A DNA stretch of 64,000 nucleotides from Desertivirga arenae. GTDB lineage: Bacteria > Bacteroidota > Bacteroidia > Sphingobacteriales > Sphingobacteriaceae. The notes below the pieces were generated by a model. It had not been told where the DNA came from, searched no databases, and was given only the letters and a program-made list of their open reading frames with translations. Both the position numbers and the translations under genes were made by a program. The stretch covers positions 62,001 through 126,000 of the forward strand of contig NZ_JAFEWE010000001.1 of assembly GCF_017355785.1 (NCBI RefSeq). Reading direction: 5' to 3'. Each line of letters opens with the position of its first letter. The first letter of the stretch is position 1. Shown piece after piece: positions 24,713-48,636 of this stretch.

Positions 24713-26185
24713 ATGGAAAAAAAGGTAGTCTTAAAACCCATTATGTTTGTTGGTACTTCTTCCGATGTTGGAAAAAGTGTGATCACGGCGGGCTTCTGCC
24801 GCATCTTTAAGCAGGATGGCTTCTCTCCTGCTCCTTTTAAGGCACAAAACATGTCGCTTAACAGCTTCGCCACTCCAGATGGCTTTGAAATTGGAAGAGC
24901 GCAGGCTGTACAAGCAGAAGCTGCAGGCATTTCTTGCCATACTGATATGAATCCGGTGCTACTTAAACCAACATCTGATTCCAGTTCGCAGGTAGTGCTG
25001 CATGGAAAACCGGTTGGAAACATGTCGGCCAGGGACTATTTTAAGGCTGAAGGGCGCGAAAAGCTTTTCCAGGAAGTCACCGCCTCTTTTAGGCGTTTAG
25101 CTTCTGATTACATGCCTATAGTACTTGAAGGTGCAGGAAGCATTTCAGAATTGAACCTAAAGCATCGTGACATCACCAATATGAGAATGGCAAAGGAAGC
25201 AGGCGCCGCCACTTTCCTGGTTACAGACATTGAGCGAGGTGGAGTTTTTGCGAGCTTATATGGAACTATGGCATTACTCGAACCCGAGGAAAAAGCATTG
25301 ATAAAGGGAATCATAATCAATAAATTCCGCGGCGATAGTGCCTTGTTTGAAGAAGGAAGGGTTATGATCGAAAAGCTTTGCGGAGTACCTGTGGTCGGGA
25401 TCCTTCCCTACTTCAAGGATATTGTGATTGAAGAGGAAGACTCAGTATCCCTAAAACAGAAACTGAATAAAGCCTCCGGGGATAAAGTAAATATTGCTGT
25501 TATTCTCTTAAACCGTCTCTCTAACTTTACTGACTTCAGTCGCCTTGAAAATGATCCGAGAGCTAGCGTTTACTATACCATTGATCCTGAAGAAATAGGC
25601 AAGGCAGATATCATTATCCTGCCAGGAAGCAAAAACACCATTGAGGATACGATAGCTATTAAAAATAATGGCGTTGCACAGGCTGTTATGCAGGGCTTTA
25701 AAGATGGTAAAACCATTATAGGGATTTGCGGAGGGTACCAAATGCTAGGGGAATCTATAGACGACCCTTACGGGATAGAAAGCAGTATTAGTTCTACCGC
25801 AGGACTTGGAATACTTCCTGTTAAGACTATTCTGCATTCGGAAAAAGTAACTAAACAGTCTACTTTCAGATTTCAAGAGCTGAATAATGAATGTTTGGGG
25901 TATGAGATCCATATGGGAGAAACAAGCACAGAGAAGGCACGTCCCCTTAATTTTCTCAGCGATGGCAGAGTAGATGGCTACTTTCTTAACGAGCGATGCT
26001 GGGGAACGTATATGCATGGCATCCTTGATAATCCTGCAGTAATTAATCATCTGCTAAAACCATACACCGACTTAGAAAACATCATGGACTACCAGGAATT
26101 CAAAGATCTGCAATATAACCGGCTGGCTGATCTGATCAGGAATCATCTCGACATGAAGTTCATTTATCAAACTTTAGAAAGCTAA
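24713..26185 (+). CDS. cobQ: Cobyric acid synthase CobQ/CbiP
   Basis: A 490-residue ATP- and glutamine-dependent amidase. It converts (adenosyl)cobyrinic acid a,c-diamide to cobyric acid by amidating the b, d, e and g carboxylates. The N-terminal ATPase domain shows FVGTSSDVGKSVITAGF and the CobQ-specific FKAQNMSLNS, then VLEGAGSISELNL. The C-terminal glutaminase domain has nucleophile C339 in GICGGYQMLG and H435 in TYMHGILDN. Length is normal. It is the first gene of a tightly spaced run (cobD-like, cbiB, NTPase, cbiA), 2 nt ahead of the next. Confidence 0.96.
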   Translation: MEKKVVLKPIMFVGTSSDVGKSVITAGFCRIFKQDGFSPAPFKAQNMSLNSFATPDGFEIGRAQAVQAEAAGISCHTDMNPVLLKPTSDSSSQVVLHGKPVGNMSARDYFKAEGREKLFQEVTASFRRLASDYMPIVLEGAGSISELNLKHRDITNMRMAKEAGAATFLVTDIERGGVFASLYGTMALLEPEEKALIKGIIINKFRGDSALFEEGRVMIEKLCGVPVVGILPYFKDIVIEEEDSVSLKQKLNKASGDKVNIAVILLNRLSNFTDFSRLENDPRASVYYTIDPEEIGKADIIILPGSKNTIEDTIAIKNNGVAQAVMQGFKDGKTIIGICGGYQMLGESIDDPYGIESSISSTAGLGILPVKTILHSEKVTKQSTFRFQELNNECLGYEIHMGETSTEKARPLNFLSDGRVDGYFLNERCWGTYMHGILDNPAVINHLLKPYTDLENIMDYQEFKDLQYNRLADLIRNHLDMKFIYQTLES

Positions 26186-26187
26186 CC

Positions 26188-27207
26188 ATGCTGCACGGCC
26201 ACGGCGACGACGGATACCTGTATCAAAAGCAGATCCAGGCAGATTTTAGTACTAACGTGTGGTATGGCGGAGAACCTGCGGGACTTAAGGAACACCTCTT
26301 TTCTATATGGCCAAGTATCAACAAGTATCCTGAGGTGGTAGCAGAGGGCCTGGTAGAAAAGTTAAGTCACCACCATCAACTTCCTGCTGATTCATTTCTA
26401 ATCAATAACGGCAGTACAGAAAGCATTTACCTGGTAGCACAAGCTTTTGAAGGAAGAAAGACGGCAATTACGATTCCTGCCTTTGCTGAATACCAGGATG
26501 CCTGCAAAATGTACGAACATCAGATAAGTTTTATCAGATGGGAGGAGCTGAGAGCAGATCTTATAATCAACGCTGATATCCTTTTTATCTGTAATCCAAA
26601 TAATCCTACTGGTTATGCAATTCAAAATATGGAGGCTATAATCAGAGCAAATCCTGGTGTTCTATTTGTTGTAGATGAAGCTTTCATTGAATTTACACTT
26701 GCGATAGATTCACTCATCTCATTGGCCAGTCATCTTGAAAATCTCATCATATTAAGATCTCTGACCAAAGCTTATGCTATACCAGGGTTACGGCTAGGGT
26801 ATATTGTCGCAGCAAAGGAGATCATTGAGAAATTGAGATCTTTGAAATATCCCTGGTCTGTAAACACACTGGCTGTAGAAGCCGGAAAATTTATCTTTGA
26901 CAACTACAATTCTATTCAGATTCCCTTAAACCAATTATTAGAAGAGAAAATACGGTTCTCTGAGTTGCTCCGAACTACGGGGATAAATGTATTTGATAGC
27001 AGCACCCATTTCTTCATTGCAGAAACACCAAAGTACACAGCGGCCGACTTAAAACGCTTTTTAATTGATAATTTTGGCATTCTTATTCGTGATGCCAGCA
27101 ATTTCAAAACTCTAGAAGCGAAACATTTCCGGCTTGCGACTTTAGAAGCAGATAAAAATGAACTTTTAATCAAGGCAATGAAAGAATGGATGAGTTCCGG
27201 TTATTAG
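26188..27207 (+). CDS. cobD: PLP-dependent aminotransferase, probable threonine-phosphate decarboxylase (CobD/CobC-like)
   Basis: A 339-residue fold-type I PLP enzyme. The start LHGHGDDGYLY resembles CobD. Conserved features are ICNPNNPTGYA, VVDEAFIEF, and the PLP lysine in ILRSLTKAYAIPGLRLGY. By context between cobQ and cbiB it should decarboxylate L-threonine O-3-phosphate to (R)-1-amino-2-propanol O-2-phosphate, the nucleotide-loop linker. The sequence alone does not separate this from histidinol-phosphate aminotransferase, but the glycine-rich start and the operon strongly favour CobD. Its 3' end overlaps cbiB by 22 nt. Confidence 0.88.
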   Translation: MLHGHGDDGYLYQKQIQADFSTNVWYGGEPAGLKEHLFSIWPSINKYPEVVAEGLVEKLSHHHQLPADSFLINNGSTESIYLVAQAFEGRKTAITIPAFAEYQDACKMYEHQISFIRWEELRADLIINADILFICNPNNPTGYAIQNMEAIIRANPGVLFVVDEAFIEFTLAIDSLISLASHLENLIILRSLTKAYAIPGLRLGYIVAAKEIIEKLRSLKYPWSVNTLAVEAGKFIFDNYNSIQIPLNQLLEEKIRFSELLRTTGINVFDSSTHFFIAETPKYTAADLKRFLIDNFGILIRDASNFKTLEAKHFRLATLEADKNELLIKAMKEWMSSGY

Positions 27208-28127
27208 TTTTCTCGCTATTTACAGGCTACCTTCTTGATCTCATCTTTGGCGATCCTGAGCAACTTCCGCATCCGGTAAGGGTTTATGGAAATGCCATAT
27301 ACAGAGCTGAAAAGCTCCTGAATAAAGGCAAAGGAAGATTCATAAAGGGGTGCTTGTTAGCAATATCCCTTTGCACTCTTTGTTTTCTATCCTTCTATTT
27401 CCTTCAAAAACTGTTATTTCAGCTCCATCCTATTGCTTATTTTATCAGTGCCAGTGTTTTTGTTTTTTACGGGCTCGCTAATAAAGGATTAATCCAGGAA
27501 GGCAGAAATGTTTTTCATGTTTTGGAATTTGAGGGACTCGAAGCAGGCCGAAAACAGCTTTCAAGGATTGTTGGTCGCGATACAAGCAGGTTAAGTCCTC
27601 AGCAAATAAGAACAGCTGTACTTGAAACAGTGTCCGAAAATTTAAGCGATGGGGTAATTGCCCCCCTTTTTTATTTTGCAATTGCTGGAGTACCTGGGCT
27701 TATGACTTACAAAATGATCAATACCCTGGATTCTATGCTTGGATACAGGACTGATCGTTATGAAAAATTTGGGAAATTCTCTGCCCGGCTTGATGATGTC
27801 GCCAATCTTATTCCGGCACGCCTTACTGCAGTGTTAATGGCGCTTTCAGCCCTGAGTATGCGAGCTATTCAATTTGCACTGAAATATGGGAGCAAGCATA
27901 AAAGCCCTAATTCGGGCTATCCGGAAGCTGCCCTTGCAGGGATATTGAACATACGTTTTGGCGGTCCGAATGTTTATCATGGTGTTTTAGTTGAAAAGCC
28001 CTTCATTGGTTCAAATAACAGAGAGATAGATCACGGAGATTTTAATATCGCTGCAAGAATTAATCATACCAGTACTTTACTTATGATTATTCTCATAGCA
28101 GCATTAAGTTTTGCTTTACATGCCTAA
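27186..28127 (+). CDS. cbiB: Adenosylcobinamide-phosphate synthase CbiB
   Basis: A 313-residue inner membrane enzyme with about five hydrophobic segments. It attaches aminopropanol phosphate to cobyric acid. Typical motifs are LLDLIFGDPEQLPHPVR near the N-terminus, IVGRDTSRLSPQQIRTAVLETVSENLSDGVIAPLFY in the middle, and NTLDSMLGYRTDRYEKFGKFSARLDDVANLIPARLT. Length is normal. It overlaps the preceding gene by 22 nt and the following NTPase gene by 8 nt, so it is firmly part of the operon. Confidence 0.96.
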   Translation: MDEFRLLVFSLFTGYLLDLIFGDPEQLPHPVRVYGNAIYRAEKLLNKGKGRFIKGCLLAISLCTLCFLSFYFLQKLLFQLHPIAYFISASVFVFYGLANKGLIQEGRNVFHVLEFEGLEAGRKQLSRIVGRDTSRLSPQQIRTAVLETVSENLSDGVIAPLFYFAIAGVPGLMTYKMINTLDSMLGYRTDRYEKFGKFSARLDDVANLIPARLTAVLMALSALSMRAIQFALKYGSKHKSPNSGYPEAALAGILNIRFGGPNVYHGVLVEKPFIGSNNREIDHGDFNIAARINHTSTLLMIILIAALSFALHA

Positions 28128-28668
28128 ATATATTATAACGGGAGGCCCCGGAGCGGGAAAAACGAGTTTACTCAACGCATTAGAGGAGAAGGGATTTTCT
28201 GTATCCGAAGAAGCTTCTAGACAACTGATCATCGAAGAAGTGGCCAAAGGATCTGAATGCCTCCCATGGATTAACCTTCCTGCCTTTGCCGAAAAAGCGC
28301 TGGAAAGAATGCAGTCACTGTATCATGCAGCTCCGAAAGGGCAGGCCACATTTTTTGATCGTGGGATACCTGATATTATTGCCTATCTCAAAGCGGCATC
28401 TATTGATCCTGATGCGAAGTATTATCAGGCTTTGTTCAAATGCCAATATCATCCTCAGGTATTTATCCTACCCCCCTGGGAAGGTATCTACGTGAATGAT
28501 ACCGAACGCTGGCAAACGTTTGAAGAGGCAAGCCAGTTGTACCAGTCAATCAAGGAAACCTATGAAGAGCTTGGGTTCGAATTAATTGAGCTACCTTCTG
28601 CAAGTATTAAAGAACGAGCAGAACTTGTAGTGTCACATATTGAAAATTTTGTTTCAGCAACCAGGTAA
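28120..28668 (+). CDS. P-loop NTPase/kinase (AAA_28-like) embedded in the cobalamin operon
   Basis: A 182-residue protein from ATG 28120; an in-frame TTG at 28111 is less likely. Walker A is TGGPGAGKTSLL near the N-terminus, followed by the family's EEASRQLI and a DRGIPDIIAYL motif, as in AAA_28-type ATPases related to small-molecule kinases. A WQTFEEASQLYQ segment follows. No known cobalamin enzyme matches. Yet it overlaps cbiB by 8 nt and shares one base with cbiA, so its product is probably needed in the same pathway. An L-threonine kinase supplying the CobD substrate is one hypothesis. Confidence 0.8.
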   Translation: MPKYIITGGPGAGKTSLLNALEEKGFSVSEEASRQLIIEEVAKGSECLPWINLPAFAEKALERMQSLYHAAPKGQATFFDRGIPDIIAYLKAASIDPDAKYYQALFKCQYHPQVFILPPWEGIYVNDTERWQTFEEASQLYQSIKETYEELGFELIELPSASIKERAELVVSHIENFVSATR

Positions 28669-29999
28669 TGGAACAAGATCGATCGATACCGCAATTTCTG
28701 ATAGCCGCGCCTTCCAGTAATTCTGGCAAAACCACACTTACACTAGGTCTGATTAAAGCTCTTTCTAATATGGGACTAAAAGTTCAAGCCTTCAAATGTG
28801 GTCCCGATTATATCGACCCCATCCTGCATAGGAGAGCGAGCGGACAGCATTCTATCAACATTGACATGTTTATGGCTTCTGCTGAGCATGCAAAGGGCCT
28901 GTATGCCAGGTATACAACTAATGCTGATGCTGCTGTTGTAGAAGGGGTAATGGGACTTTTCGATGGGGCGTACAAAATGAAGGGAAGCGGAGCTGAAGTA
29001 GCTATTATGTTGGATATCCCGGTGGTTTTAGTGGTTGATGCAAAAGCAATGGCCTATTCAGCAGCGGCTCTTATCTATGGCTTTAAAAATTTCTGTAAAG
29101 ACATCAACCTGGCGGGAGTTATTTTTAACCGGGTTAAAACAAGTTCTCATTACAGCTTTCTGGTTGATGCCTGTACAGATGCAGGTGTTGAAGCTTTAGG
29201 ATATCTCCCCCCTCAGGAGAACATTGAAATTCCTTCCAGACATTTAGGGTTGAGCATAGATACCCAGGTTGACATTGCAGCAATATGCGGCAGGATTGCT
29301 GAATCACTTGAGAAAACAGTTAATCTGGCGCGACTTGTTGAATTAACATCAAAACCTGCTCCTGCAGCATTTGCAGAGAGGGCCTTGTCAGTTTCAGAAA
29401 GCAAAGAAAGGATACGTATTGCTGTGGCAAAGGACGAAGCCTTTAATTTTACCTATCAGGAGAACCTGGAAGCCTTGAAAGCTTTGGGTGAGCTGAGCTT
29501 TTTCAGTCCCATACATGATAAACGCCTCCCTAAATGTGATCTCTTATACCTTGCCGGGGGATATCCAGAGCTTCATTTAGAACGATTGAGTCAGAATCAG
29601 GAAATGCTTTCTACTATCAGAGCCTACTGTGAGGCTGGGGGAAGAACACTTGCTGAATGCGGTGGGATGATGTATTTAGGTCAATCCATTACTGATCAGG
29701 AAAGTAAAGTTCTCCCTATGGTAGGATTCTTACCTTTGACGACCTCTATGGCTGTACCGAAATTGCATTTAGGATACAGGCAAATTGAAATAAAAGGTTT
29801 AACCATAAAAGGTCATGAATTCCATTATTCCAACTGTAGTGCTGCAAACGAAGCTATAGTTACCAATTGCAAAATTCTAAATGCAAAAGGAGCTCAAGTA
29901 GATTCTAAGATCTACAGAAGAAATTCCACAATTGCATCTTACATCCATTTCTATTGGGCTGAAAATCCTGGCTTCCTAAATAACTTGTTTGCGTTTTAA
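28668..29999 (+). CDS. cbiA: Cobyrinic acid a,c-diamide synthase CbiA/CobB
   Basis: A 443-residue amidase that converts (hydrogeno)byrinic acid to its a,c-diamide using glutamine and ATP. The N-terminal ATPase domain has APSSNSGKTTLTLGL, FKCGPDYIDP and EGVMGLFDG. The C-terminal glutaminase domain has nucleophile C331 in LAECGGMMYLG and the late GHEFHYS motif. With an aerobic-type CobN chelatase downstream the substrate is likely hydrogenobyrinic acid, i.e. the CobB role. It shares one base with the NTPase stop. Confidence 0.95.
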   Translation: MEQDRSIPQFLIAAPSSNSGKTTLTLGLIKALSNMGLKVQAFKCGPDYIDPILHRRASGQHSINIDMFMASAEHAKGLYARYTTNADAAVVEGVMGLFDGAYKMKGSGAEVAIMLDIPVVLVVDAKAMAYSAAALIYGFKNFCKDINLAGVIFNRVKTSSHYSFLVDACTDAGVEALGYLPPQENIEIPSRHLGLSIDTQVDIAAICGRIAESLEKTVNLARLVELTSKPAPAAFAERALSVSESKERIRIAVAKDEAFNFTYQENLEALKALGELSFFSPIHDKRLPKCDLLYLAGGYPELHLERLSQNQEMLSTIRAYCEAGGRTLAECGGMMYLGQSITDQESKVLPMVGFLPLTTSMAVPKLHLGYRQIEIKGLTIKGHEFHYSNCSAANEAIVTNCKILNAKGAQVDSKIYRRNSTIASYIHFYWAENPGFLNNLFAF

Positions 30000-30145: not shown

Positions 30146-33100
30146 ATGAGAGAAATAAAGCGACAAAGGATTACCCGTCCAGATGGTAAATCTATAAATC
30201 TGGTACAACGAAGAGGACACCTGTCCTATTGCTATAATGCCTGTTGTTGCGGCAGGACAGACCGGGGATATGCAGCAGTTCCAGTTGATCTTTATAAGAA
30301 TGAATGGCTGAAACGAAAACTTAGGAACGTTGTGCATCTTACCAAGGGTGGTTGTCTTGGTCCCTGCACCCTGGCAAACGTTGCAACTCTACTTTTCGAC
30401 GGAAATTCGGTCTGGTTTCACTCAATTAACAGCGATTGGCAAGTAACAGCTATTTTTGATTATATCCAGAGCATGGTAGAAGCGGATTGCTTCCTTGTTC
30501 CTCCTGCTGAACTGAATGAATATGTTTTTCAGTTTTATACCTGGAAAGGATCCGAGACTGATACCCTTGCCGGAGAAGCACCCGATCCGTCAGAAGGCAT
30601 CGTATTCCTCACCCATGCCGATACAGATCTTCTAACGTTGCACCGTGCTATACAGGTGTTACCTGACGACTTCCCTAAAACACTAGGTATGAACCTGCAG
30701 GCTGTCAAAACAGAAGCGCATATGGCACAATTGCTTGAAAGGGAACTGGCAGCAGCGCAAATCATTATTTTGAGGATCCTGGGTCGCCCAAGCAGTATAC
30801 CGGGTTTTAATGAACTGGTAAAAAGGGCTAACGAAAGGAACCAACAATTAATTGTTGTTAGCGGAACAGGCGAACTTAATCCTGAATATGCCGCTATATC
30901 AACAGTTTCGCCTGCAATTCTCCAGGATACGCTCCTCTACCTGCAGGCGAGTGGACATATCAATCTGGCAAACCTGCTTCATTTCCTATCCGACCATTTA
31001 TTGCTGACAGGATTTGGATATGATGCTCCGGTTGAGCTCCCCGATCATGGAATATACCATCCTGCTCTTCCAGAAAATGCAAGCCGGGAAGATTGGGAAA
31101 AAATTTGCGATCCAGATCTCCCAACGGCCGGAATTACATTTTACCGTGCACATTTCTTAAGTGGGAACACGGCGTTCATCGACAAGCTTGTAGAAAGCCT
31201 GGAAGAGAAGGGTATGAATGTATTGCCTGTCTTCACTTCCTCCCTGAAAGCTAAGGATCAGGAAAGCGACTGGCCTTCAGCCTTTAACTTCTTCCGCAGG
31301 GATGATGAAACCCTAATTGATATCCTAATCAATACGGTTTCTTTCGCCATGCAGAATTCTGACCAATACTCTAGTAGTTCTGATAGTCCCCTAAACAGAC
31401 TTGATGTTCCCATCCTGCAAGCTATTAGTAGCGGGATGACAAAAGGGTCCTGGGAAAACTCGACAAGGGGACTTAACCCTCTTGATACTGCAATGAATGT
31501 TGCTATTCCCGAATTTGATGGAAGGATAATTACTGTACCTATCTCATTTAAAGAAAAGGAAAGGGAAACAAAAGGATACGAAGCACACGATGACCGGATT
31601 GAGCGTGTTGCCGGTATCGCTTATCGCTTCGCCCGTTTGAAACATCTTAAAAATTCTGAAAAGAGAATTGCTTTTGTGTTTACAAATTCAAGCTCCAAAG
31701 CTTCCCAGATCGGTAATGCTGTCGGTCTTGACGCACCGGCATCCCTCCTGTCTATTTTGCAGGCAATGCAGGCAGAAGGCTATGATATTGATGAACTACC
31801 AGAAACAGGAACGGAGATCATCCATGAATTGATCAATCGCTGTTCGTACGACGAGAACTACCTCTCTGCAGAACAACTTGGGAATGCGGTTGGGAAAGTA
31901 AATGCAGAAACGTACAACAAATGGTTTTCGGAGTTACCGGAATCCTTGCGAATTAAAATGAAAAAACATTGGGGTAACCCTCCGGGTGAGACCTATGTAC
32001 ATCATAATAACATCTGTTTTGCGGGCATTAATTACGGAAATGCACTTGTCGCGCTTCAGCCTCCACGAGGATATGGAATGGATGCCGACGCGATCTATCA
32101 TCAACCCGACTTACCCCCCACCCATCATTACCATGCCTTCTACCGTTGGTTGAGAGATGGCTGGGGTGCAGATGCCATCGTACATGTGGGTAAGCACGGG
32201 ACCTTGGAATGGTTACCCGGAAAAGGCCTCGGGCTATCCGAAAACTGCTTTCCTGATGCGTTTTTAGCAGATCTACCTTTGTTTTATCCCTTCATTATAA
32301 ATGATCCCGGCGAGGGTTCGCAGGCAAAACGACGTGCACATGCCGTTGTTATTGACCACCTTACCCCGCCTATGACAACAGCAGATACCTATGGTGAACT
32401 GGCTCAACTCACTCAGCTGGTGGATGAATACTACCAGGTGGAAACACTGGATCCATCAAAACTACCTCTTCTGCAAAGACAGATCTGGGAGCTGATACAG
32501 AAGGCAAACCTGGATAAAGATCTTGCCCTGCTGCTTCGAAAGGATCATGGCGACCATGTTCACGAGTGGGATGATGAGTTAACACCGGAAGGTGTACCGG
32601 TTAGTCTGGCGGAAATGGAAGGAAAAGACGTCTCGCATTTGATCGAAGATATCGATGGATATTTATGTGAATTAGGTGCAGCGCAGATTCGGAGCGGACT
32701 GCATGTTTTAGGGGAAATGCCACAAGATGAAGCTCTTGTTGATATGCTTCTGGCCTTAACCAGGCTACCAAATCCCGGTATCCCAAGTCTTCCTGCTTCC
32801 ATAGCATCCTTTTTTGACCTTGACTTTCAGAGATTGCAGTCAGATAAAGGGAAACGTTTGGATGAGCTATCGGAAAGTTTCAAAAGATTTGCCGGCCGTC
32901 CGGTTACATCGGCTGCGGATGCCCTGGAAGTAATAGATGAATCAGGAAAGCACCTATTACTTCTATTAAAAAAACATGGTTTTAGAAGAAACGCGATTGC
33001 AATAGTACTAAAAGAAACATTCGGCGAATCCACAGCGGAAAGACTTGCTGATATCCATCATATCCTGGTGTATATTTGTGAAAAGATACTTCCTAACCTG

Positions 33101-34426
33101 GATCAGACCTATGATGAGATCAGCAATCTTTTGCATGCCCTTTCCGGTGGCTACGTCCCGGCCGGACCAAGCGGTGCTCCTACACGGGGTATGGCGCATA
33201 TCCTTCCAACGGGTAAAAACTTTTACACCTCCGACCCAAGAGCTCTTCCCTCTCAAACAGCATGGGAAGTAGGTCAACAGCTTGCGAGAGAAGTGCTTGA
33301 CAGGCACCTGAGAGAAACCAACCGCTTTCCGGAGAATGTAGGAATAAGCATTTGGGGAACAAGCGCAATGCGTACACAAGGCGATGATGTGGCTGAAATC
33401 CTGGCTCTTTTGGGAGTTCGTCCGGTATGGCAAACTGAAAGCAGAAGGGTTACAAGCCTTGAGGTAATACCACTGGATGAATTGAAACGGCCAAGAATAG
33501 ATGTTACAACGAGAATAAGTGGTTTCTTCCGGGACGCATTCCCGCACTTGATAGAACTTATTGATCAGGCTGTTCAACTGGTTATTAATATCGACGAGCC
33601 CTTGGATCAGAACTTTGTCCGGAAACACTATTTGAAAGATCTGGAAGAACTGCAGCAGGAGGATATCAGTTTGGAAGAAGCTGAACAAAGAGCCTCTTAC
33701 CGCATTTTCGGTTCACCACCTGGAAGCTATGGTGCAGGAATACTCCCTTTGATACAGGAACGTAACTGGCAATCAGACGCTGATTTTGCTCAAACTTATA
33801 TTAATTGGGGAGGATATGCTTATTCTTCTTCTGTAAGTGGAGCCGACGCAAGGAACGAGTTTAAGCAGCGTTTATCCGGGGTCGAAGTAGCTCTCCATAA
33901 TCAGGATAACCGGGAACACGACATTTTCGATAGTGATGATTACCTGCAGTTCCACGGAGGTATGATTGCTTCTATCCGCAGCTTAACCGGTCACCGGCCG
34001 AGAGCCTATTTTGGCGACAGCCAGGACCCTTCAAGGGCGGTTGTCAGAGACATCAGGGAAGAAGCATTACGGGTTTTCCGGTCAAGGGTCGTAAATCCGA
34101 AGTGGCTGGAGAGTATTAAAAAGCATGGGTACAAAGGAGGTTTGGAACTGACCGCTACCGTTGATTACCTTTTCGGCTACGATGCCACCGCGCAGGTTGC
34201 AGACGATTGGATGTACGAAAAAGTAGCAGAAACCTATGCTCTAGATAAAGACATGCAAGGCTTCTTTGAACAGAATAATCCCTGGGCCCTGAATGCTATT
34301 GCAGAACGCCTGCTGGAGGCGGCACAACGCAACATGTGGAAATCTCCTGATCCTGATACCCTGAAATCGCTACAGGAGATCTATCTTCAAAGCGAAAATA
34401 TACTGGAAGAGAAAAATGAAGCATAA
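30146..34426 (+). CDS. cobN: Cobaltochelatase subunit CobN with N-terminal [2Fe-2S] ferredoxin-like domain
   Basis: A 1426-residue protein. Residues 1 to about 120 resemble a thioredoxin-fold [2Fe-2S] ferredoxin, with C29, C33-C35 and a C-x3-C pair (C70, C74, in GGCLGPC). The rest is CobN, the large subunit that inserts Co2+ into hydrogenobyrinic acid diamide. Characteristic stretches are CFAGINYGNALVALQPPRGYGMD, HVGKHGTLEWLPGKGLGLSENCFPD and SADAL-type segments. The C-terminal half has IWGTSAMRTQGDDVAEILALLGVRPVW. No stop or frameshift interrupts it. It is followed by the ChlI-ChlD fusion. A redox or iron-sulfur role for the N-terminal domain is inferred only from its cysteines. Confidence 0.93.
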   Translation: MREIKRQRITRPDGKSINLVQRRGHLSYCYNACCCGRTDRGYAAVPVDLYKNEWLKRKLRNVVHLTKGGCLGPCTLANVATLLFDGNSVWFHSINSDWQVTAIFDYIQSMVEADCFLVPPAELNEYVFQFYTWKGSETDTLAGEAPDPSEGIVFLTHADTDLLTLHRAIQVLPDDFPKTLGMNLQAVKTEAHMAQLLERELAAAQIIILRILGRPSSIPGFNELVKRANERNQQLIVVSGTGELNPEYAAISTVSPAILQDTLLYLQASGHINLANLLHFLSDHLLLTGFGYDAPVELPDHGIYHPALPENASREDWEKICDPDLPTAGITFYRAHFLSGNTAFIDKLVESLEEKGMNVLPVFTSSLKAKDQESDWPSAFNFFRRDDETLIDILINTVSFAMQNSDQYSSSSDSPLNRLDVPILQAISSGMTKGSWENSTRGLNPLDTAMNVAIPEFDGRIITVPISFKEKERETKGYEAHDDRIERVAGIAYRFARLKHLKNSEKRIAFVFTNSSSKASQIGNAVGLDAPASLLSILQAMQAEGYDIDELPETGTEIIHELINRCSYDENYLSAEQLGNAVGKVNAETYNKWFSELPESLRIKMKKHWGNPPGETYVHHNNICFAGINYGNALVALQPPRGYGMDADAIYHQPDLPPTHHYHAFYRWLRDGWGADAIVHVGKHGTLEWLPGKGLGLSENCFPDAFLADLPLFYPFIINDPGEGSQAKRRAHAVVIDHLTPPMTTADTYGELAQLTQLVDEYYQVETLDPSKLPLLQRQIWELIQKANLDKDLALLLRKDHGDHVHEWDDELTPEGVPVSLAEMEGKDVSHLIEDIDGYLCELGAAQIRSGLHVLGEMPQDEALVDMLLALTRLPNPGIPSLPASIASFFDLDFQRLQSDKGKRLDELSESFKRFAGRPVTSAADALEVIDESGKHLLLLLKKHGFRRNAIAIVLKETFGESTAERLADIHHILVYICEKILPNLDQTYDEISNLLHALSGGYVPAGPSGAPTRGMAHILPTGKNFYTSDPRALPSQTAWEVGQQLAREVLDRHLRETNRFPENVGISIWGTSAMRTQGDDVAEILALLGVRPVWQTESRRVTSLEVIPLDELKRPRIDVTTRISGFFRDAFPHLIELIDQAVQLVINIDEPLDQNFVRKHYLKDLEELQQEDISLEEAEQRASYRIFGSPPGSYGAGILPLIQERNWQSDADFAQTYINWGGYAYSSSVSGADARNEFKQRLSGVEVALHNQDNREHDIFDSDDYLQFHGGMIASIRSLTGHRPRAYFGDSQDPSRAVVRDIREEALRVFRSRVVNPKWLESIKKHGYKGGLELTATVDYLFGYDATAQVADDWMYEKVAETYALDKDMQGFFEQNNPWALNAIAERLLEAAQRNMWKSPDPDTLKSLQEIYLQSENILEEKNEA

Positions 34427-34534: not shown

Positions 34535-36448
34535 ATGATATATCCTTTTACGGCAATAGTAGGGCAGGAAAAATTAAAAAAAGCACTTCTATTATGTGCG
34601 GTAAATCCCTCTATAGGGGGAGTTTTGATTAGAGGCGATAAAGGGACGGCTAAAAGTACAGCGGCAAGAGCACTGGCGAAGATCGTTCCTCCTATCTCCA
34701 AAACCGTTGGTTGCAGGTTTAACTGTCCCGACTACGCTCCTTTAAGCATTTGTGAAGCCTGTATGCAAATAGAAAAAGAGCTTGAACTGGTTCAGGTCCC
34801 TTTTGTCAACCTACCTCTGGGAGCATCAGAGGAACGGGTTTTGGGACAGCTGGATCTGGAAGGCATCCTGATTGAAAAGAAAAAAAAGCTTCAACCAGGC
34901 TTGCTTGCATCGGCCCATCAAGGGATTCTTTATATAGACGAGGTTAACCTGCTTTCAGATCATCTGGTGGATGTACTCCTTGATGCAGCAGCCATGGGGG
35001 TTAATACTATCGAACGTGAAGGTCTATCGATTAGTCACCCTTCGCGATTTACGCTGATCGGGACTATGAACATTGAAGAAGGGAACCTTCGACCTCAACT
35101 GCTCGATCGCTTTGGATTAATGGTGGATGTAGAGGCCCCTGCAAGCATTGAAGAGCGCACAGAAGTTGTTCGCCGGCGTGTGGCCTATGAAAGTGACCCT
35201 GCAACCTTTATTTCGCGGTGGAGAGAAGAACAGGAAACATTACGCAGTAAACTTATTACTGCTAAAGAACTTCTACCCCAGGTGCAGCTAAAAGACGACC
35301 TTTTAACACTGATTAGTGAACTTTCTATGGGAATGGGTGTAAAAAGCCTTAGAGCAGATATAGTGATGTATAAGACAGCACAAACGATAGCTGCATTAGA
35401 TGGTCGTACTGAAGTAACAGCAGAAGACATCCGCGAAGCTGCAGAGCTAGTGCTGGCACATAGAAGTCACCAAAGACCTTTTTCTGACCCAGGCTTTAAC
35501 AAAGATAAACTTGACGATATGATCAGCCGGTCGCAGTCGAAACAAGATAACGGGCACGAAGACGAACACCAAACGAATACCCAATCTGAGGAAGCGGAGT
35601 TGGACGATTCTGGATCATATCAGGACAGTTCGGAGGAACACACCTTCAATGCGCAACAGCAACAATCAATACCAAGGATAGAATTAAAGATCAATACCAG
35701 CCTGGATGAACTTAAGGAAGGTAAGCGAAGTCTAGTTGACCGTGCAAAAAAAGGAAAGTATACAAGAGCAGAACGATCAGGAACATTAACAGAAATCGCA
35801 ATTGACCCTACCATTTATCATGCAATCCATCGCGATCCCGAAAACTTCGAATTGCGAAAGGAAGACCTTCAACAAAAGGTACGAAACGGAAAAACAGGAA
35901 ACTTAATCCTTTTTGTTGTTGACGCTTCCGGATCTATGGCAGCAAATAAGCGAATGGAAGCAGTAAAAGGCACCGTATTGAACCTTTTGAAAGATGCCTA
36001 TCAGAGAAGGGATGAAGTAGCCGTTATTGCGTTCCGGGGAATAGAGTCAAAAGTATTACTACAACCTACCCGCAGCGTTGAACTAGCTGAAGTAGCATTG
36101 CAGAAACTGCCTACCGGAGGCCGGACACCTCTCCCCCATGCCTTACAAACAGCTTTTCAATTAATGAAGAAGGTTGGTACCGCAGAAGAATTAAAACCGA
36201 TACTGGTTATTCTAAGTGATGGGAAAGCAAATGTACCGGTGGCGGGTGGTGATCCCTGGGAAGAAACTTTAACTATTTCTGCGGGTATTAAGAATGATGA
36301 AATACCAGGTTTGGTAATTAATACAGACATTGACTACCTGCAGCTTGGCCGGGCTCAACAAATGGCGGAAGCGTTAGGCCTGGAATATATTTCTTTAGCC
36401 GATATTGATTCAGACAATCTTACTCCGGTGGTGAAAAAGGTTTTATAA
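34535..36448 (+). CDS. ChlI-ChlD (BchI-BchD) type AAA+/VWA chelatase subunit, probable cobaltochelatase partner of CobN
   Basis: A 637-residue fusion. The N-terminal AAA+ part (1 to about 320) shows FTAIVGQEKLKKAL, Walker A GDKGTAKSTAARAL, an inserted cysteine cluster CRFNCPDYAPLSICEAC, and Walker B GILYIDEVNLL. A Glu/Asp/Ser-rich hinge (about 325-375) leads to a C-terminal VWA domain with the MIDAS motif VDASGSMAA, the metal-binding T of TGGRTPLPHAL, and ILSDGKANVP. Mg chelatases use separate I and D subunits; the fusion beside cobN suggests it replaces CobS and CobT. It ends 2 nt from a convergent transporter gene. Confidence 0.9.
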   Translation: MIYPFTAIVGQEKLKKALLLCAVNPSIGGVLIRGDKGTAKSTAARALAKIVPPISKTVGCRFNCPDYAPLSICEACMQIEKELELVQVPFVNLPLGASEERVLGQLDLEGILIEKKKKLQPGLLASAHQGILYIDEVNLLSDHLVDVLLDAAAMGVNTIEREGLSISHPSRFTLIGTMNIEEGNLRPQLLDRFGLMVDVEAPASIEERTEVVRRRVAYESDPATFISRWREEQETLRSKLITAKELLPQVQLKDDLLTLISELSMGMGVKSLRADIVMYKTAQTIAALDGRTEVTAEDIREAAELVLAHRSHQRPFSDPGFNKDKLDDMISRSQSKQDNGHEDEHQTNTQSEEAELDDSGSYQDSSEEHTFNAQQQQSIPRIELKINTSLDELKEGKRSLVDRAKKGKYTRAERSGTLTEIAIDPTIYHAIHRDPENFELRKEDLQQKVRNGKTGNLILFVVDASGSMAANKRMEAVKGTVLNLLKDAYQRRDEVAVIAFRGIESKVLLQPTRSVELAEVALQKLPTGGRTPLPHALQTAFQLMKKVGTAEELKPILVILSDGKANVPVAGGDPWEETLTISAGIKNDEIPGLVINTDIDYLQLGRAQQMAEALGLEYISLADIDSDNLTPVVKKVL

Positions 36449-37256: not shown

Positions 37257-37264
37257 TACATTTG
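37257..37264 (+). promoter_or_regulatory. -7 element of the riboswitch-controlled transport transcript
   Basis: TACATTTG fits TAnnTTTG and lies just 7 nt before the first base of riboswitch stem P1, exactly where a start for the aptamer is needed. The upstream TTA is an imperfect -33. Confidence 0.65.
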
Positions 37265-37271
37265 CAGCGCA

Positions 37272-37440
37272 AAAGGTAGCAGTTCTATATAGAACGCTTT
37301 AATAGGGAATACCGGTGAGAATCCGGAACAGTCTCCGCTGCTGTAACCCCCAGAAAGAACCTGCAAAAATGCCACTATTGAAACATCCTAATGTACAACG
37401 GGAAGGCGCAGAGTTCGGGGAAGTCAGAAGACCTGCCTTG
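37272..37440 (+). ncRNA. Cobalamin riboswitch (+ strand)
   Basis: The B12 aptamer landmarks are in order: P1 5' arm AAGGTAGCAG, the B12-box region around 37312-37350 (AGGGAATACCGGTGAGAATCC, then CCGCTGCTGTAA), TGCCACT, the GGGAAGG arm, and the closing AAGTCAGAAGACCTGCC, whose CTGCCTT pairs with the 5' arm. It precedes the BtuF-like gene by 41 nt. That short gap suggests control of translation initiation rather than a terminator, since no T-run hairpin is seen. B12 should repress the downstream uptake genes. Confidence 0.95.
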
Positions 37441-37481
37441 AATAATTACTCATAAATGCTTTCGGAAGAAAGGCAGAGAAT

Positions 37482-43152: not shown

Positions 43153-43749
43153 CTAACCTTCTTCTGTTACAGCTTTCTTCTTCCTTTTATATAAAAACAA
43201 CTGCCATTTTTCTTCAGCAACCCCTGCTTTGTCCATTTCTGCCCTCGCAAGGGTAAAGAACAGATCAGACAGACGGTTAACATACGAAATAATGTATTCT
43301 TCTACACAAGCGGGATCTGTCTTCATCAAAGTAACCAGCCTTCTTTCTCCTCGTCTTATCTGCGTTCTGCAAACATGACAAAGAGCAGAGATCTCATTAC
43401 CTCCTGGCAAAAGGAAATAGTCTGAAGGAGAAGTAATACCTGCTTCAAGTTCATCGAGCCATTGTTCACAAAAACTTGCTCCATCCACTGGTTTCGGATT
43501 TGTATTTTCCTTGGTGGAATCAGAAGGACGGGCAAGGTGAGACATCATATCCATCAGATCTTTTTGTATACGGTGCAGGTTTGGCTGCCATTCGTGTTCA
43601 GCGCCTAATTTAGCTCTAAGCAATCCTATAGTCGAATTTGCTTCATCTAAAGCGCCGTTACATTCAATTCTGGGAGAATCTTTATCTTCTCTCTTGCCAC
43701 CGAAAACCCCGGTAGTTCCTTTATCGCCTTTTCTGGTATAAATCTTCAT
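43153..43749 (-). CDS. pduO: ATP:cob(I)alamin adenosyltransferase, PduO type
   Basis: A 198-residue enzyme that transfers adenosyl from ATP to cob(I)alamin or its precursors. The N-terminal YTRKGDKGTTGVFGG binds ATP. The central CRTQIRRGERRLVTL and the C-terminal YVNRLSDLFFTLAR contain the conserved arginines and the active-site R/N/D of PduO-type enzymes. It is unrelated to the CobA/BtuR type. It probably adenosylates imported as well as newly made corrinoid, matching its place between the transport genes and the epimerase-like gene under one riboswitch. Confidence 0.95.
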   Translation of the reverse strand: MKIYTRKGDKGTTGVFGGKREDKDSPRIECNGALDEANSTIGLLRAKLGAEHEWQPNLHRIQKDLMDMMSHLARPSDSTKENTNPKPVDGASFCEQWLDELEAGITSPSDYFLLPGGNEISALCHVCRTQIRRGERRLVTLMKTDPACVEEYIISYVNRLSDLFFTLARAEMDKAGVAEEKWQLFLYKRKKKAVTEEG

Positions 43750-44599: not shown

Positions 44600-44800
44600 A
44601 AAACTGATGATTTAAATAGCTGCAAGCGTGAACCGCAGGCGGGTTGACTTTAGTGAAACAAGCCTGAGTGGAAAACGAAAAAAATATTCTTTTCATCGAA
44701 TGATTTTAAATTTGAAAATCATTCATAACCAGGGGCATCAATAGATGCAAAAGCATCTACTCATCAGCTTTTTACCCGAAAGCTATGAATTTTGCGTTAA
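44600..44800 (-). other. Leader between riboswitch aptamer and the epimerase-like gene
   Basis: 200 nt of 5' leader. It contains a perfect 10-bp hairpin (44698-44707 with 44715-44724) and a small one around 44744-44759 (AGATGC/GCATCT). On the - strand a T-run follows the first hairpin only after about 12 nt. It may be an expression platform, but neither a terminator nor a sequestered start is clear. Confidence 0.45.
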
Positions 44801-44940
44801 TGGCAGGTCTTCTGACTTGCTTTTACTTGCCGCCTTCCCGTTTAAACAGTGGCATTATGGCAAATTTGATAAAGCTTACAGCAGCGGGAACTGTTCCGGA
44901 CTTGCACCGGATTCCCTATTAATTCCTTCTTGGAAACCTA
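44801..44940 (-). ncRNA. Cobalamin riboswitch (- strand)
   Basis: Read on the - strand, the aptamer shows TAGGGAATCCGGTGCAAGTCC, CCCGCTGCTGTAA, TGCCACTG, a GGGAAGGCGGC arm and the final AAGTCAGAAGACCTGCC, all in the order of the AdoCbl-type B12 riboswitch. It heads the operon of the epimerase-like protein, PduO, BtuC and BtuD. The two aptamers in this window differ mainly in the peripheral loops. Confidence 0.95.
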
Positions 44941-45078
44941 TAACGGCTGTAAAGGTACTTAAACTTAGCTTAAAACCAGAAAGAATATATCAGGGGGACC
45001 AGCACCGACCTGCCTTGCAATACAACATAAAAGAGACATCAAAAAAATGTTGCTTTCATAATCTGGGTCATACTTTTC

Positions 45079-45153: not shown

Positions 45154-45672
45154 ATGATCATTTATATCAGCGGAGGCGTGCGAAGCGGTAAAAGTGCCTT
45201 TGCTCAACAGACTGCACTTGGCCTTTCTGACCATCCTGTTTACGTTGCTACGGCAAAGATCTGGGACGAGGATTTCAGGAAGCGGGTGGAACGTCACCAG
45301 CTGGAAAGGGGATCAGAGTGGATCAACTTTGAGGGCTACCAGAATATAGCAGATCTCCCTATCAAAGATAGAGTGGTGGTTATAGATTGCGTTACACTGT
45401 GGCTCACTAATTTTTTTATGGATTTTAATAATTCTATAGACGATTCGCTTGTAGCTTTTAAAAACGAGATCGATCAACTGGACAAACTACAAGGTACTTT
45501 TATCATTATTTCTAACGAGCTTGGAATGGGATTGCATGCGGATACTGAAGTTGGAAGAAAGTTCGCAGATCTGCAGGGATGGGCTAATCAGTATGTAGCA
45601 TCTAAAGCAGAGGAAGCTATTTTCATGGTATCTGGACTACCCTTGTATTTAAAAAGAAGGCAACCATGTTAA
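45154..45672 (+). CDS. cobU: Adenosylcobinamide kinase/guanylyltransferase CobU
   Basis: A 172-residue bifunctional enzyme. It phosphorylates adenosylcobinamide and then adds GMP to give adenosylcobinamide-GDP. The P-loop is GGVRSGKS (7-14), and H48 in RVERHQ matches the guanylylated histidine. VVVIDCVTLWLTNF and IIISNELGMGLH complete the family pattern. Length is typical. The 3' end overlaps the bluB-cobT gene by 7 nt. First gene of the nucleotide-loop assembly operon. Confidence 0.96.
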   Translation: MIIYISGGVRSGKSAFAQQTALGLSDHPVYVATAKIWDEDFRKRVERHQLERGSEWINFEGYQNIADLPIKDRVVVIDCVTLWLTNFFMDFNNSIDDSLVAFKNEIDQLDKLQGTFIIISNELGMGLHADTEVGRKFADLQGWANQYVASKAEEAIFMVSGLPLYLKRRQPC

Positions 45673-47345
45673 GTTTAGAGGAAATTTTCCATTCAAGAAG
45701 AGACACCCGGCATTTCTGCAGTGAAGAAGTTCCGGAAGAAGTTATACGTAAAGCCCTTGAAGCAGGTCATGCCGCTCCTTCTGTGGGATTAACGGATGCT
45801 ACAAGATTTTACCTGATCAGGTCGGCCAAGGTTAAGCAAGAGATCAAAAAACTATTCGAAGAATACAATCAGAAAGCCGTTGAGCTCATCACAGATCCGG
45901 GCCAAAAATCCAGCTATTCCTCTTTAAAGCTTGAGGGTATTCTTGATGCTCCTCTTGGTTTAGTTGTGGGATATGACCGGTCAGTATTAAACAACTTTAC
46001 CATTGGTACTATTGCCAGTAATGAAACTATTAAGTTCAGCGCAGTATGTGCGGTCCAGAATATCTGGCTGTCCCTTACGGAACAAGGGTACTCAATGGGC
46101 TGGGTTTCCATATTGAACTACTATAATTTCAAAAAGATCCTTAACCTGCCTGACGAAATCGAAGCCCTGGGATATTTCTGCGTTGGCAAGCCTGCAACCG
46201 ATTATGACAAGCAGCCGATGCTGCAGCAATTGGGCTGGAAGATGAAGTCGGCACAGCCGGTAGTTGTAGAAATCAATTCAACAAGCCCAATAACCGAACT
46301 TTACAGAGAATCAGCTTTAGACAAACCAGAAACTTCAAGAAGCCTGGAAGAAGAGCTCCAACATCTCATCGATAATAAAACAAAGCCTTTAGGATCGTTG
46401 GGATTATTGGAAGATCTGGCCAAACAAATAGGACTCATTCAAAATACTACCAAACCACAGATCAGTCGCCCGCACATTATCGTTTTTGCTGCAGATCATG
46501 GTATTGCCCAGCACGGCGTTAGTGCCTTTCCACCGGAAGTAACAAGCCAGATGGTAAATAACTTCCTCACCGGGGGAGCTGCTGTAAGCGTGTTTTGCCG
46601 TCAGCACCAAATCACCTTAAAGGTGGTTGATGCCGGAGTTAATTATGACTTTCCTGGCAATAAGGGCATAATTGACAATAAAATAGCAAAAGGAACCCAA
46701 ACCTTTCTCCATGGCCCGGCTATGAGTCAGGAAGAGCTGCAGCTTTGTTTTCATAAAGGTGCTGAAGTAATTAAGAGCCTTTATGACGAAGGTTGCAATA
46801 CTGTGGGCTTTGGAGAGATGGGAATTGGAAATACCTCCAGCGCATCAGTATTAATGAGTGTACTTTGCCATATTCCGGTCTCTGATTGTGTAGGTAAAGG
46901 AACAGGACTTCTGGATGAACAACTAAAAAGAAAGATCGAGATACTAGAGGCGGCAATACAGAATTATTCAGGTGAAGACAAAGCAGAAAGCCTTATGGCG
47001 CATTTTGGTGGATTTGAGATCATGCAAATTGCCGGAGCAATGATCGAAGCCAGTAAACGAGGAATGATCATACTGGTAGATGGTTTTATCTGCAGCAGTG
47101 CATTCCTTTGTGCCTGCCTGATAGACCCTGAAGTAAAAAGAAATGCAATCTTTGCCCACCAATCAGACGAAAAAGGACATAAGCTTTTATTGGATTATCT
47201 GCAAGCCAGGCCATTATTGCATTTATCTATGCGCCTTGGCGAAGCTAGTGGAGCAGCCATTGCATTTCCAATACTAAAAAGTGCAGTGGCATTCCTTAAT
47301 GAAATGGCAAGCTTCGAAAGTGCATCAGTCTCTAACAAAAGTTGA
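45666..47345 (+). CDS. bluB-cobT: BluB-CobT fusion: DMB synthase plus nicotinate-nucleotide:DMB phosphoribosyltransferase
   Basis: A 559-residue two-enzyme fusion. Residues 1 to about 205 are BluB, a nitroreductase-fold flavoenzyme that cuts FMNH2 with O2 to 5,6-dimethylbenzimidazole. They show FHSRRDTRHFCSEEVPEEVI, AGHAAPSVGLTDATRFYLI and MGWVSILNY. From about 235 CobT follows, with DNKTKPLGSLGLLEDLA, VFAADHGIAQHGVSAFP, GFGEMGIGNTSSASV and the C-terminal LRLGEASGAA. CobT converts DMB to alpha-ribazole phosphate. The fusion couples synthesis and activation of the lower ligand, and implies that the organism makes DMB-type cobalamin in oxygen. It overlaps cobS by 4 nt. Confidence 0.95.
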   Translation: MLSLEEIFHSRRDTRHFCSEEVPEEVIRKALEAGHAAPSVGLTDATRFYLIRSAKVKQEIKKLFEEYNQKAVELITDPGQKSSYSSLKLEGILDAPLGLVVGYDRSVLNNFTIGTIASNETIKFSAVCAVQNIWLSLTEQGYSMGWVSILNYYNFKKILNLPDEIEALGYFCVGKPATDYDKQPMLQQLGWKMKSAQPVVVEINSTSPITELYRESALDKPETSRSLEEELQHLIDNKTKPLGSLGLLEDLAKQIGLIQNTTKPQISRPHIIVFAADHGIAQHGVSAFPPEVTSQMVNNFLTGGAAVSVFCRQHQITLKVVDAGVNYDFPGNKGIIDNKIAKGTQTFLHGPAMSQEELQLCFHKGAEVIKSLYDEGCNTVGFGEMGIGNTSSASVLMSVLCHIPVSDCVGKGTGLLDEQLKRKIEILEAAIQNYSGEDKAESLMAHFGGFEIMQIAGAMIEASKRGMIILVDGFICSSAFLCACLIDPEVKRNAIFAHQSDEKGHKLLLDYLQARPLLHLSMRLGEASGAAIAFPILKSAVAFLNEMASFESASVSNKS

Positions 47346-48133
47346 TGAAAAAACAGTTGAAGACTTTTCTTGCAGCGATCTCTTATTACACCCGCATCCC
47401 TTGTAAGGTTCAGCTGGAAGAAAGCCATTTGTCGGGCTCCATCCGGTATTTCCCCATGATAGGATGGATAACTGGTATAAGCAGTGCTTTAGTATTTTGG
47501 GCCGGTAACTATCTCTTTGACAGACCTATTGCCGTTATTTTAGCTATTGTAAGTTCTGTTTTGTTAACCGGTGCAATCCATGAAGATGGGTTTGCCGATG
47601 TATGTGACGGTTTCGGCGGGGGATGGACAAGAGAAAAAATATTGGCAATAATGAAAGATAGCAGGGTTGGGGCTTATGGTGTTTTGGGAGTTTGCCTTAT
47701 CCTTCTTCTAAGGTTCCTTGCACTGGAAGGGATTTTAAATTTGTGCTCAAATCAACCGTCTATCGAATTGAGTATTATTGTCTCCGCTCATAGTTTCAGT
47801 CGGTTTAACGCATCAACCCTTATTTATAAGAATAATTATGTGCGAGAGACTGAGAATAGCAAAGCCTCCTTTGTTTCGCAGAAGAATATTTTAAAAGATC
47901 TTACGGTAGCATCTACCATGGCAGCCTTGCCGTTTATACTATTGCTAAGGCTTGCAGAAAAGCCCCTTCTGCTCCTACTTATCCCGGTTCTTTTCCTGAT
48001 CAGAACCTACCTCAGAAATTTTTTCAGAAAATGGATCGGAGGATATACAGGAGATTGCCTGGGAGCTGTTCAATTGATCACAGAAGTTAGCTTCTATTTG
48101 TTTCTTATTCCCTTATGGAAATTTACCTTATAA
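47342..48133 (+). CDS. cobS: Adenosylcobinamide-GDP ribazoletransferase CobS
   Basis: A 263-residue integral membrane enzyme that joins adenosylcobinamide-GDP and alpha-ribazole (phosphate). It starts with FLAAISYYTRIP. The Mg-binding motif is IHEDGFADVCDGFGGGWTREKILAIMKDSRVGAYGV, typical of CobS, and the C-terminus has GGYTGDCLGAVQLITEV. About six membrane segments are visible. It overlaps bluB-cobT by 4 nt and cobC by 19 nt. Confidence 0.96.
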   Translation: MMKKQLKTFLAAISYYTRIPCKVQLEESHLSGSIRYFPMIGWITGISSALVFWAGNYLFDRPIAVILAIVSSVLLTGAIHEDGFADVCDGFGGGWTREKILAIMKDSRVGAYGVLGVCLILLLRFLALEGILNLCSNQPSIELSIIVSAHSFSRFNASTLIYKNNYVRETENSKASFVSQKNILKDLTVASTMAALPFILLLRLAEKPLLLLLIPVLFLIRTYLRNFFRKWIGGYTGDCLGAVQLITEVSFYLFLIPLWKFTL

Positions 48134-48636
48134 GACACACACGACCGCAGCTGACAAAAGGACTTATTTACGGAAGGACAGACCTGCCTTTAGCTGAATC
48201 CTTCGAAGAGGAAATGATAAACGTACGATCAATTCTCCCTGAAGACATTGAAGCTGTTTACTCCAGCCCCTCACAACGGTGTTCCCACCTTGCACACGCT
48301 ATTTCAGCAAAGCCTCTCCTGGATGAGCGACTATACGAATTGCATTTTGGGGAATGGGAAGGCAAAACATGGGACACGATTGATCGCATGGCGAGTGAAA
48401 TCTGGATGGAAGATTATATGAACAGACGTCCTCCTGCAGGAGAAACAATGCTTGAAATGAAAGAGCGGGTGAAATCTTTTTGGGATGAGATCAAAGCTAC
48501 AGGTAAGCAAAGAATTGCGGTAGTGACACATGGTGGGGTAATACGTCTCCTGCTAGCTATTGAGGGACAGATAGCCATTGAAAACATGTGGGAGCGAGTT
48601 ATTTCCTTTGGGGAAGTAGTCTGCATCAGCACCTGA
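48115..48636 (+). CDS. cobC: Alpha-ribazole phosphatase CobC (histidine phosphatase family)
   Basis: A 173-residue histidine phosphatase. The catalytic RHT motif (LIRHTRPQ), arginine-containing GRTDLPL, and the second histidine in VVTHGGVIR are present, with ELHFGEWEGKTWDTI between. The family also includes phosphoglycerate mutase-like enzymes, but its position as the last gene of the cobU-bluB/cobT-cobS run indicates removal of the 5' phosphate from alpha-ribazole or cobalamin phosphate. It ends 2 nt from a convergent gene. Confidence 0.92.
   Translation: MEIYLIRHTRPQLTKGLIYGRTDLPLAESFEEEMINVRSILPEDIEAVYSSPSQRCSHLAHAISAKPLLDERLYELHFGEWEGKTWDTIDRMASEIWMEDYMNRRPPAGETMLEMKERVKSFWDEIKATGKQRIAVVTHGGVIRLLLAIEGQIAIENMWERVISFGEVVCIST

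Follow-up and report, generated by a model that had tools for sequence, protein, structure and literature searches.

An AAA_28 P-loop protein of 182 residues, encoded within a cobalamin operon of Desertivirga arenae, very probably acts as a kinase in the late cobalamin pathway, and L-threonine is the likeliest single assignment for its substrate, one to which we give about an even chance. The evidence supports a real cobalamin-specific kinase subfamily that is unnamed in Pfam, NCBIfam and the searchable papers. The operon reads cbiP–cobD–cbiB–[AAA_28 gene]–cbiA–cobN–chlID, and the cobalamin genes of the window, the whole 64,000-nucleotide stretch of DNA that was analysed, are as follows.

24713–26185, + strand: cbiP/cobQ, adenosylcobyric acid synthase (NF001989, 614 bits, cut-off 273)
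26188–27207, + strand: cobD, threonine-phosphate decarboxylase-like (best family TIGR01140, 256.6 bits, below the cut-off of 290.55)
27186–28127, + strand: cbiB, adenosylcobinamide-phosphate synthase (TIGR00380, 236.7 bits, cut-off 165.9)
28120–28668, + strand: the gene studied here, probable AAA_28 P-loop kinase of the cobalamin-linked subfamily (182 aa)
28668–29999, + strand: cbiA/cobB, cobyrinic acid a,c-diamide synthase (NF002204, 471 bits, cut-off 254)
30146–34426, + strand: cobN, cobaltochelatase subunit (TIGR02257, 1261 bits, cut-off 822)
34535–36448, + strand: chlI/D-like cobaltochelatase subunit (TIGR02442, 775.8 bits, cut-off 779.45)
43153–43749, − strand: PduO-type cobalamin adenosyltransferase
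45154–45672, + strand: cobU, adenosylcobinamide kinase/guanylyltransferase
45666–47345, + strand: BluB-CobT fusion, 5,6-dimethylbenzimidazole synthase and phosphoribosyltransferase (TIGR02476 and TIGR03160, both above cut-off)
47342–48133, + strand: cobS, cobalamin synthase (TIGR00317, above cut-off)
48115–48636, + strand: cobC, alpha-ribazole phosphatase (TIGR03162, above cut-off)

The reading frame of the AAA_28 gene is intact from ATG at 28120 to TAA at 28668, and an alternative TTG start at 28111 would lengthen the protein by three residues. The open reading frame coordinates confirm the overlaps given in the preliminary description, 8 nt with cbiB and 1 nt with cbiA, the latter within TAATG, as well as its placement of the gene one gene after a CobD-like gene, cobD lying two genes upstream. 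Its recognition of a small AAA_28-like NTPase likewise holds, the match to Pfam AAA_28 (PF13521) scoring 137.8 bits (cut-off 27) and covering all of the profile (1–164 of 164). No NCBIfam model matches the protein, a PDB sequence search returned no relative, and PADLOC profiles gave weak matches limited to the P-loop, while PHROGs gave phage families resembling thymidylate kinases, with a best E of 2.7e-8. The Pfam search found no GHMP kinase domain and the GELIQG motif is lacking, which rules out a PduX/BluE homologue as the identity of the protein. The searchable literature yielded no paper on the function of COG3911 or AAA_28.

An AlphaFold2 model built from 26 sequences (mean pLDDT 93.8, pTM 0.88) finds its best match among solved structures in the ribosylnicotinamide kinase (RNK) domain of NadR (8x7f; Z 20.6, 2.4 Å, 176 of 182 residues), with deoxycytidine and thymidylate kinases matching less well (Z ~16). 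Nine residues, G8, G13, K14, E31, R34, D80, D127, R130 and R166, are invariant with NadR; E31, D80-R81 and R130 are all present in the protein, the comparison with deoxynucleoside and thymidylate kinases being one of fold at that Z of ~16. The aromatics W50, F56, Y89, Y110, W120 and Y148 are nearly invariant. From this predicted fold and these residues, the protein should transfer a phosphate of ATP to the hydroxyl of a small molecule. We found no known example of a threonine kinase with a NadR-type fold. The protein shares the fold of NadR RNK but lacks the RNK signature and the adenylyltransferase fusion: identity to NadR is just 13–20%, the P-loop follows GGPGxGK (GGPGAGK) rather than GxESxGK, DRG stands against the DT(D/T) of NadR, and the protein is stand-alone, without an NMN adenylyltransferase domain or a PnuC neighbour. 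The genome encodes three AAA_28 proteins: besides the one studied here there are two next to PnuC, a stand-alone copy and a NadR. By family and context these two are probably nicotinamide riboside kinases, and the activity is thus probably already covered.

Late cobalamin steps with a gene in the window are those of CbiP, CobD, CbiB, CbiA, the adenosyltransferase, CobU, BluB-CobT, CobS and CobC, and the threonine kinase is the sole late step without an assigned gene there. The second cob cluster of the window comprises cobU, BluB-CobT, cobS and cobC, with the PduO-type adenosyltransferase near it on the opposite strand, and cobalamin riboswitches lie at 37257–37454 (+) and 44785–44956 (−). The BluB-CobT fusion is a single open reading frame of 559 aa, each half of which scores above its NCBIfam cut-off. 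In the mechanism that we propose, cobalamin biosynthesis in the Bacteroidota/Chlorobi lineage would have taken over a small-molecule kinase with the NadR-RNK/nucleoside-kinase fold, which most likely would convert L-threonine and ATP to L-threonine O-3-phosphate. CobD would turn this product into (R)-1-amino-2-propanol O-2-phosphate, which CbiB, encoded by the adjacent gene, would join to adenosylcobyric acid, and the kinase would be a non-orthologous replacement of PduX/BluE.

BluE and PduX are L-threonine kinases by experiment (PMC6249242). The AAA_28 gene occupies the same place in cob operons as theirs (pduX–cobD, bluE–cbiB–cobD), pduX adjoining cobD in Klebsiella and a BluE-like GHMP gene adjoining cbiB and cobD in Alloyangia, and their reaction is the one otherwise missing in this genome; the protein differs from both in being a P-loop AAA_28 protein as opposed to a GHMP fold, with no detectable sequence relation. 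PF00288 is matched by PduX, by its relative P0003 and weakly by the BluE-like P0005. That BluE might itself be an AAA_28-type P-loop protein was ruled out, the Alloyangia BluE-like gene matching GHMP, weakly and below the cut-off. The four GHMP kinases of the D. arenae genome are two galactokinases, ThrB (whose gene adjoins that of homoserine dehydrogenase) and IspE, and neither a Klebsiella PduX query nor a PduX profile found PduX there, the positive control being detected. The check proposed earlier, whether the genome lacks pduX and bluE, is thus borne out by the GHMP inventory and the empty PduX searches.

Relatives were gathered by searching named genomes with an alignment of operon copies. 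The 80 loci closest to it belong to Pontibacter, Niastella, Pedobacter, Dyadobacter, Spirosoma, Hymenobacter, Siphonobacter, Marinifilum, Labilibaculum, Ancylomarina and Chlorobi, with a few outliers besides. In 73 of these 80 loci the homologue has a cobalamin gene no further than ~6 kb away, and the operon placement is therefore not due to chance. The immediate upstream same-strand neighbour is cbiB at 33 of the 80 homologues, cbiP at 20 and cbiA at 8; cobT, cobS or cobC never lies directly beside the homologue among these loci. Because gene orders differ among relatives, the homologue being paired with cbiP alone in Marinifilaceae and with cbiA in Chlorobi, the cob link does not reflect one frozen operon. 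One Chloroherpetonaceae genome (G087) holds two separate cobD–cbiB–AAA_28 loci (L054 and L059), and a tandem cobT pair occurs in the cob cluster of Marinifilum (L284:5537–7656) and Labilibaculum (L285:6556–8706).

In a tree of 114 AAA_28 rows, four of which are unassigned and excluded from the side count, a single branch (UFBoot 92, SH-aLRT 95) separates off the cob-linked sequences. All 18 tested named genomes of this cob side have cbiB, even where it is far off (Marinifilum, Chlorobi), and all four tested genomes with homologues off the cob side lack it. The D. arenae protein shows each feature by which the cobalamin-linked AAA_28 subfamily was defined in this analysis, namely tree side, cob neighbours and cbiB in the genome. 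Among the unassigned rows is an orphan (G754, L318:9663–10202, +) near the cob side, whose genome lacks cbiB and whose surroundings hold no cob genes. Non-cobalamin AAA_28 paralogues are common, reaching ~45% identity; they are of equal length and have the same active-site residues, the catalytic positions being common to the cob side and to paralogues from cbiB-negative genomes, but they differ in having no cob genes nearby. Ser33, Ile37 and Met64 are nearly fixed in the cob side only. Close homologues in genomes without cobalamin synthesis had been named in advance as a finding that would speak against a cobalamin role, and this came half true: paralogues of up to ~45% identity exist, but across the branch from the cob side. 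A non-cobalamin AAA_28 gene directly adjoins recQ as a conserved pair, often followed by an fmt-like gene, in Flavobacteriaceae and further families of Bacteroidota (L236, L238, L240, L241, L218, L250, L255). Plasmids of Enterobacter, Klebsiella, Azospirillum and others carry AAA_28 genes without cob genes. Those of Enterobacter, Klebsiella and Sphingopyxis (L293, L295, L299) are 41–45% identical, and neighbours of plasmid copies include an MFS efflux gene with the beta-lactamase blaLAP-2 once and a GrpB-family (UPF0157) gene twice.

In Cytophagales, where 292 genomes were surveyed, cbiB was found in 34 and 46 cbiB-negative genomes were tested, the gene occurs in 28 of 34 cbiB-positive and 1 of 46 cbiB-negative genomes (Fisher p ~1e-14, kinship ignored), lying less than 400 bp from cbiB in 23 of the 28. 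A whole-phylum sample of 62 cbiB-positive genomes, mostly Chlorobiaceae, recognised as such by the recurrence of their genomes among the named loci, has it in 24 and lacks it in 38, roughly a third of the Chlorobiaceae carrying it and about two thirds not, and none of four tested Bacteroidales has it. The co-occurrence with cobD across Bacteroidota that the preliminary description proposed to check is supported, as one with cobD/cbiB. Cobalamin genes can thus be expected wherever the gene occurs, but not the gene wherever they occur. Ten AAA_28-negative genomes tested at the Pfam level contain no AAA_28 protein at all, and no hidden divergent copy. In a Dyadobacter-like genome (G970), with a CbiB that shares 89% identity with the Dyadobacter koreensis protein, the gene is cleanly gone, with no trace; cbiP–cobD–cbiB is kept and PduX is absent. 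In a Hymenobacter-like genome (G792, L323), only the first 70 codons are left between cob genes, a stub 76–78% identical to intact copies, with CbiA, CobT, CobS and CobC present and cbiB not found.

Six cbiB-positive Cytophagales genomes lack the gene, and two of them (G761 and G775), closely related and near-identical, encode a PduX-family kinase instead. This GHMP protein of 284 aa, whose gene sits between cbiA and cbiP–cobD, directly upstream of the latter pair, aligns over its full length with Klebsiella PduX (29% identity, E 5e-15), sharing the motifs GELIQG, LPKPGFD and VAHSG. A PduX profile run over 80 genomes found these two only, the other matches being fragments of 18–25 bits such as ThrB or IspE give, and PduX was found in none of 39 searched cbiB-positive carriers of the AAA_28 gene. 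The CbiB of the two genomes falls inside the tree region of AAA_28-carrying genomes (88). As a displacement, the PduX substitution supports a threonine kinase, but it is a single event seen in two near-identical genomes. Absence of PduX by itself proves nothing and was rejected as proof, since many cbiB-positive genomes lack both genes; neither was found in four Cytophagales, in Bacteroidales and in most Chlorobiaceae tested.

These observations bear on several other readings. Nucleoside-kinase folds usually act on nucleosides, and for this reason a kinase of lower-ligand nucleosides, for instance of alpha-ribazole, which it would rescue for CobS as a functional analogue of CblS, is a serious rival, although we consider it unlikely. 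A kinase step of cobamide nucleotide-loop assembly is also covered by the Methanosarcina CobD kinase/decarboxylase. CblS, the alpha-ribazole kinase, performs a kinase step of that assembly (PMC6461909). The likeness in fold to NadR-RNK, deoxynucleoside and thymidylate kinases, the six nearly invariant aromatics and a patchy distribution that fits an auxiliary salvage role would all agree with such an activity. Yet the gene is never placed directly beside cobT, cobS or cobC, the BluB-CobT and CobC of the window make de novo ligand synthesis possible, and the PduX substitution would go unexplained. The position beside cbiB and cobD would equally suit a kinase of another small alcohol feeding CbiB, such as (R)-1-amino-2-propanol, ethanolamine or L-serine (norcobamide-type linker), and the CobD of the window scores below the threonine-phosphate decarboxylase cut-off, so its substrate is not assured. 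We regard this reading as improbable: almost every cbiB neighbourhood read has cobD next to cbiB, so that a phosphorylated amino acid is expected, and PduX replaces the AAA_28 gene once.

Two further readings dispense with a metabolite kinase. An NTPase helper, whether metal chaperone, CbiA/CbiP amidation helper or regulator, would account for the pairing with cbiP alone in Marinifilaceae and with cbiA in Chlorobi, and for the dispensability of the gene in some carriers of B12 genes; it is nevertheless doubtful, as these Marinifilaceae and Chlorobi genomes have cbiB elsewhere, and the full nucleoside-kinase-like residue set and the lid arginine are invariant. That the gene merely hitch-hikes, with no cobalamin role, could be argued from the spread of AAA_28 proteins on plasmids and beside recQ, but is very improbable given the strong cob association across several independent gene orders, the separate cob subfamily in the tree, and the mere stub left in the Hymenobacter-like genome where cbiB was not found. 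The L-threonine kinase reading, already put forward in the preliminary description, is partly supported: it draws support from the missing step, the absence of PduX, the operon position and the PduX swap, and is weakened by paralogues without cob genes and by the many cbiB-positive genomes without either gene. There is an even prospect that the subfamily is a class of cobalamin L-threonine kinase both new and unrelated by homology to those known, built on the NadR-RNK fold, that serves many Bacteroidota along with some Chlorobi and has given way to PduX on at least one occasion.

Few steps of B12 synthesis are as poorly accounted for as the threonine kinase: a survey covering 11,000 species dropped pduX and cobD from its criteria for B12 producers, as they are missing in most proven producers' genomes (PMC6461909). 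Now that a candidate can be named whose place in the operon is fixed, whose active site is conserved and for which PduX substitutes in nature, a single purified protein would suffice to test the question. The proposed function, if true, would help to predict which Bacteroidota produce B12 and would put right annotations as 'AAA family ATPase'.

Genomes with neither kinase may possess a further threonine kinase or draw threonine phosphate from a side activity, or else what the AAA_28 gene does may be dispensable. No alternative kinase was seen in the operons of AAA_28-negative Chlorobiaceae: CobO, ABC transporter and TIM-barrel genes occur there just as they do alongside AAA_28. A distinct CobD type was not found in genomes without the gene; in the CobD tree, Chlorobiaceae with and without it are intermingled. 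Next to cbiB in one AAA_28-negative genome (G373, L038:8531–9340, −) lies a phosphomethylpyrimidine/pyridoxal-type kinase gene, and in AAA_28-negative Parabacteroides (L305:7929–8498, +) a gene for an S4-domain protein; both are possible leads to the missing threonine kinase there.
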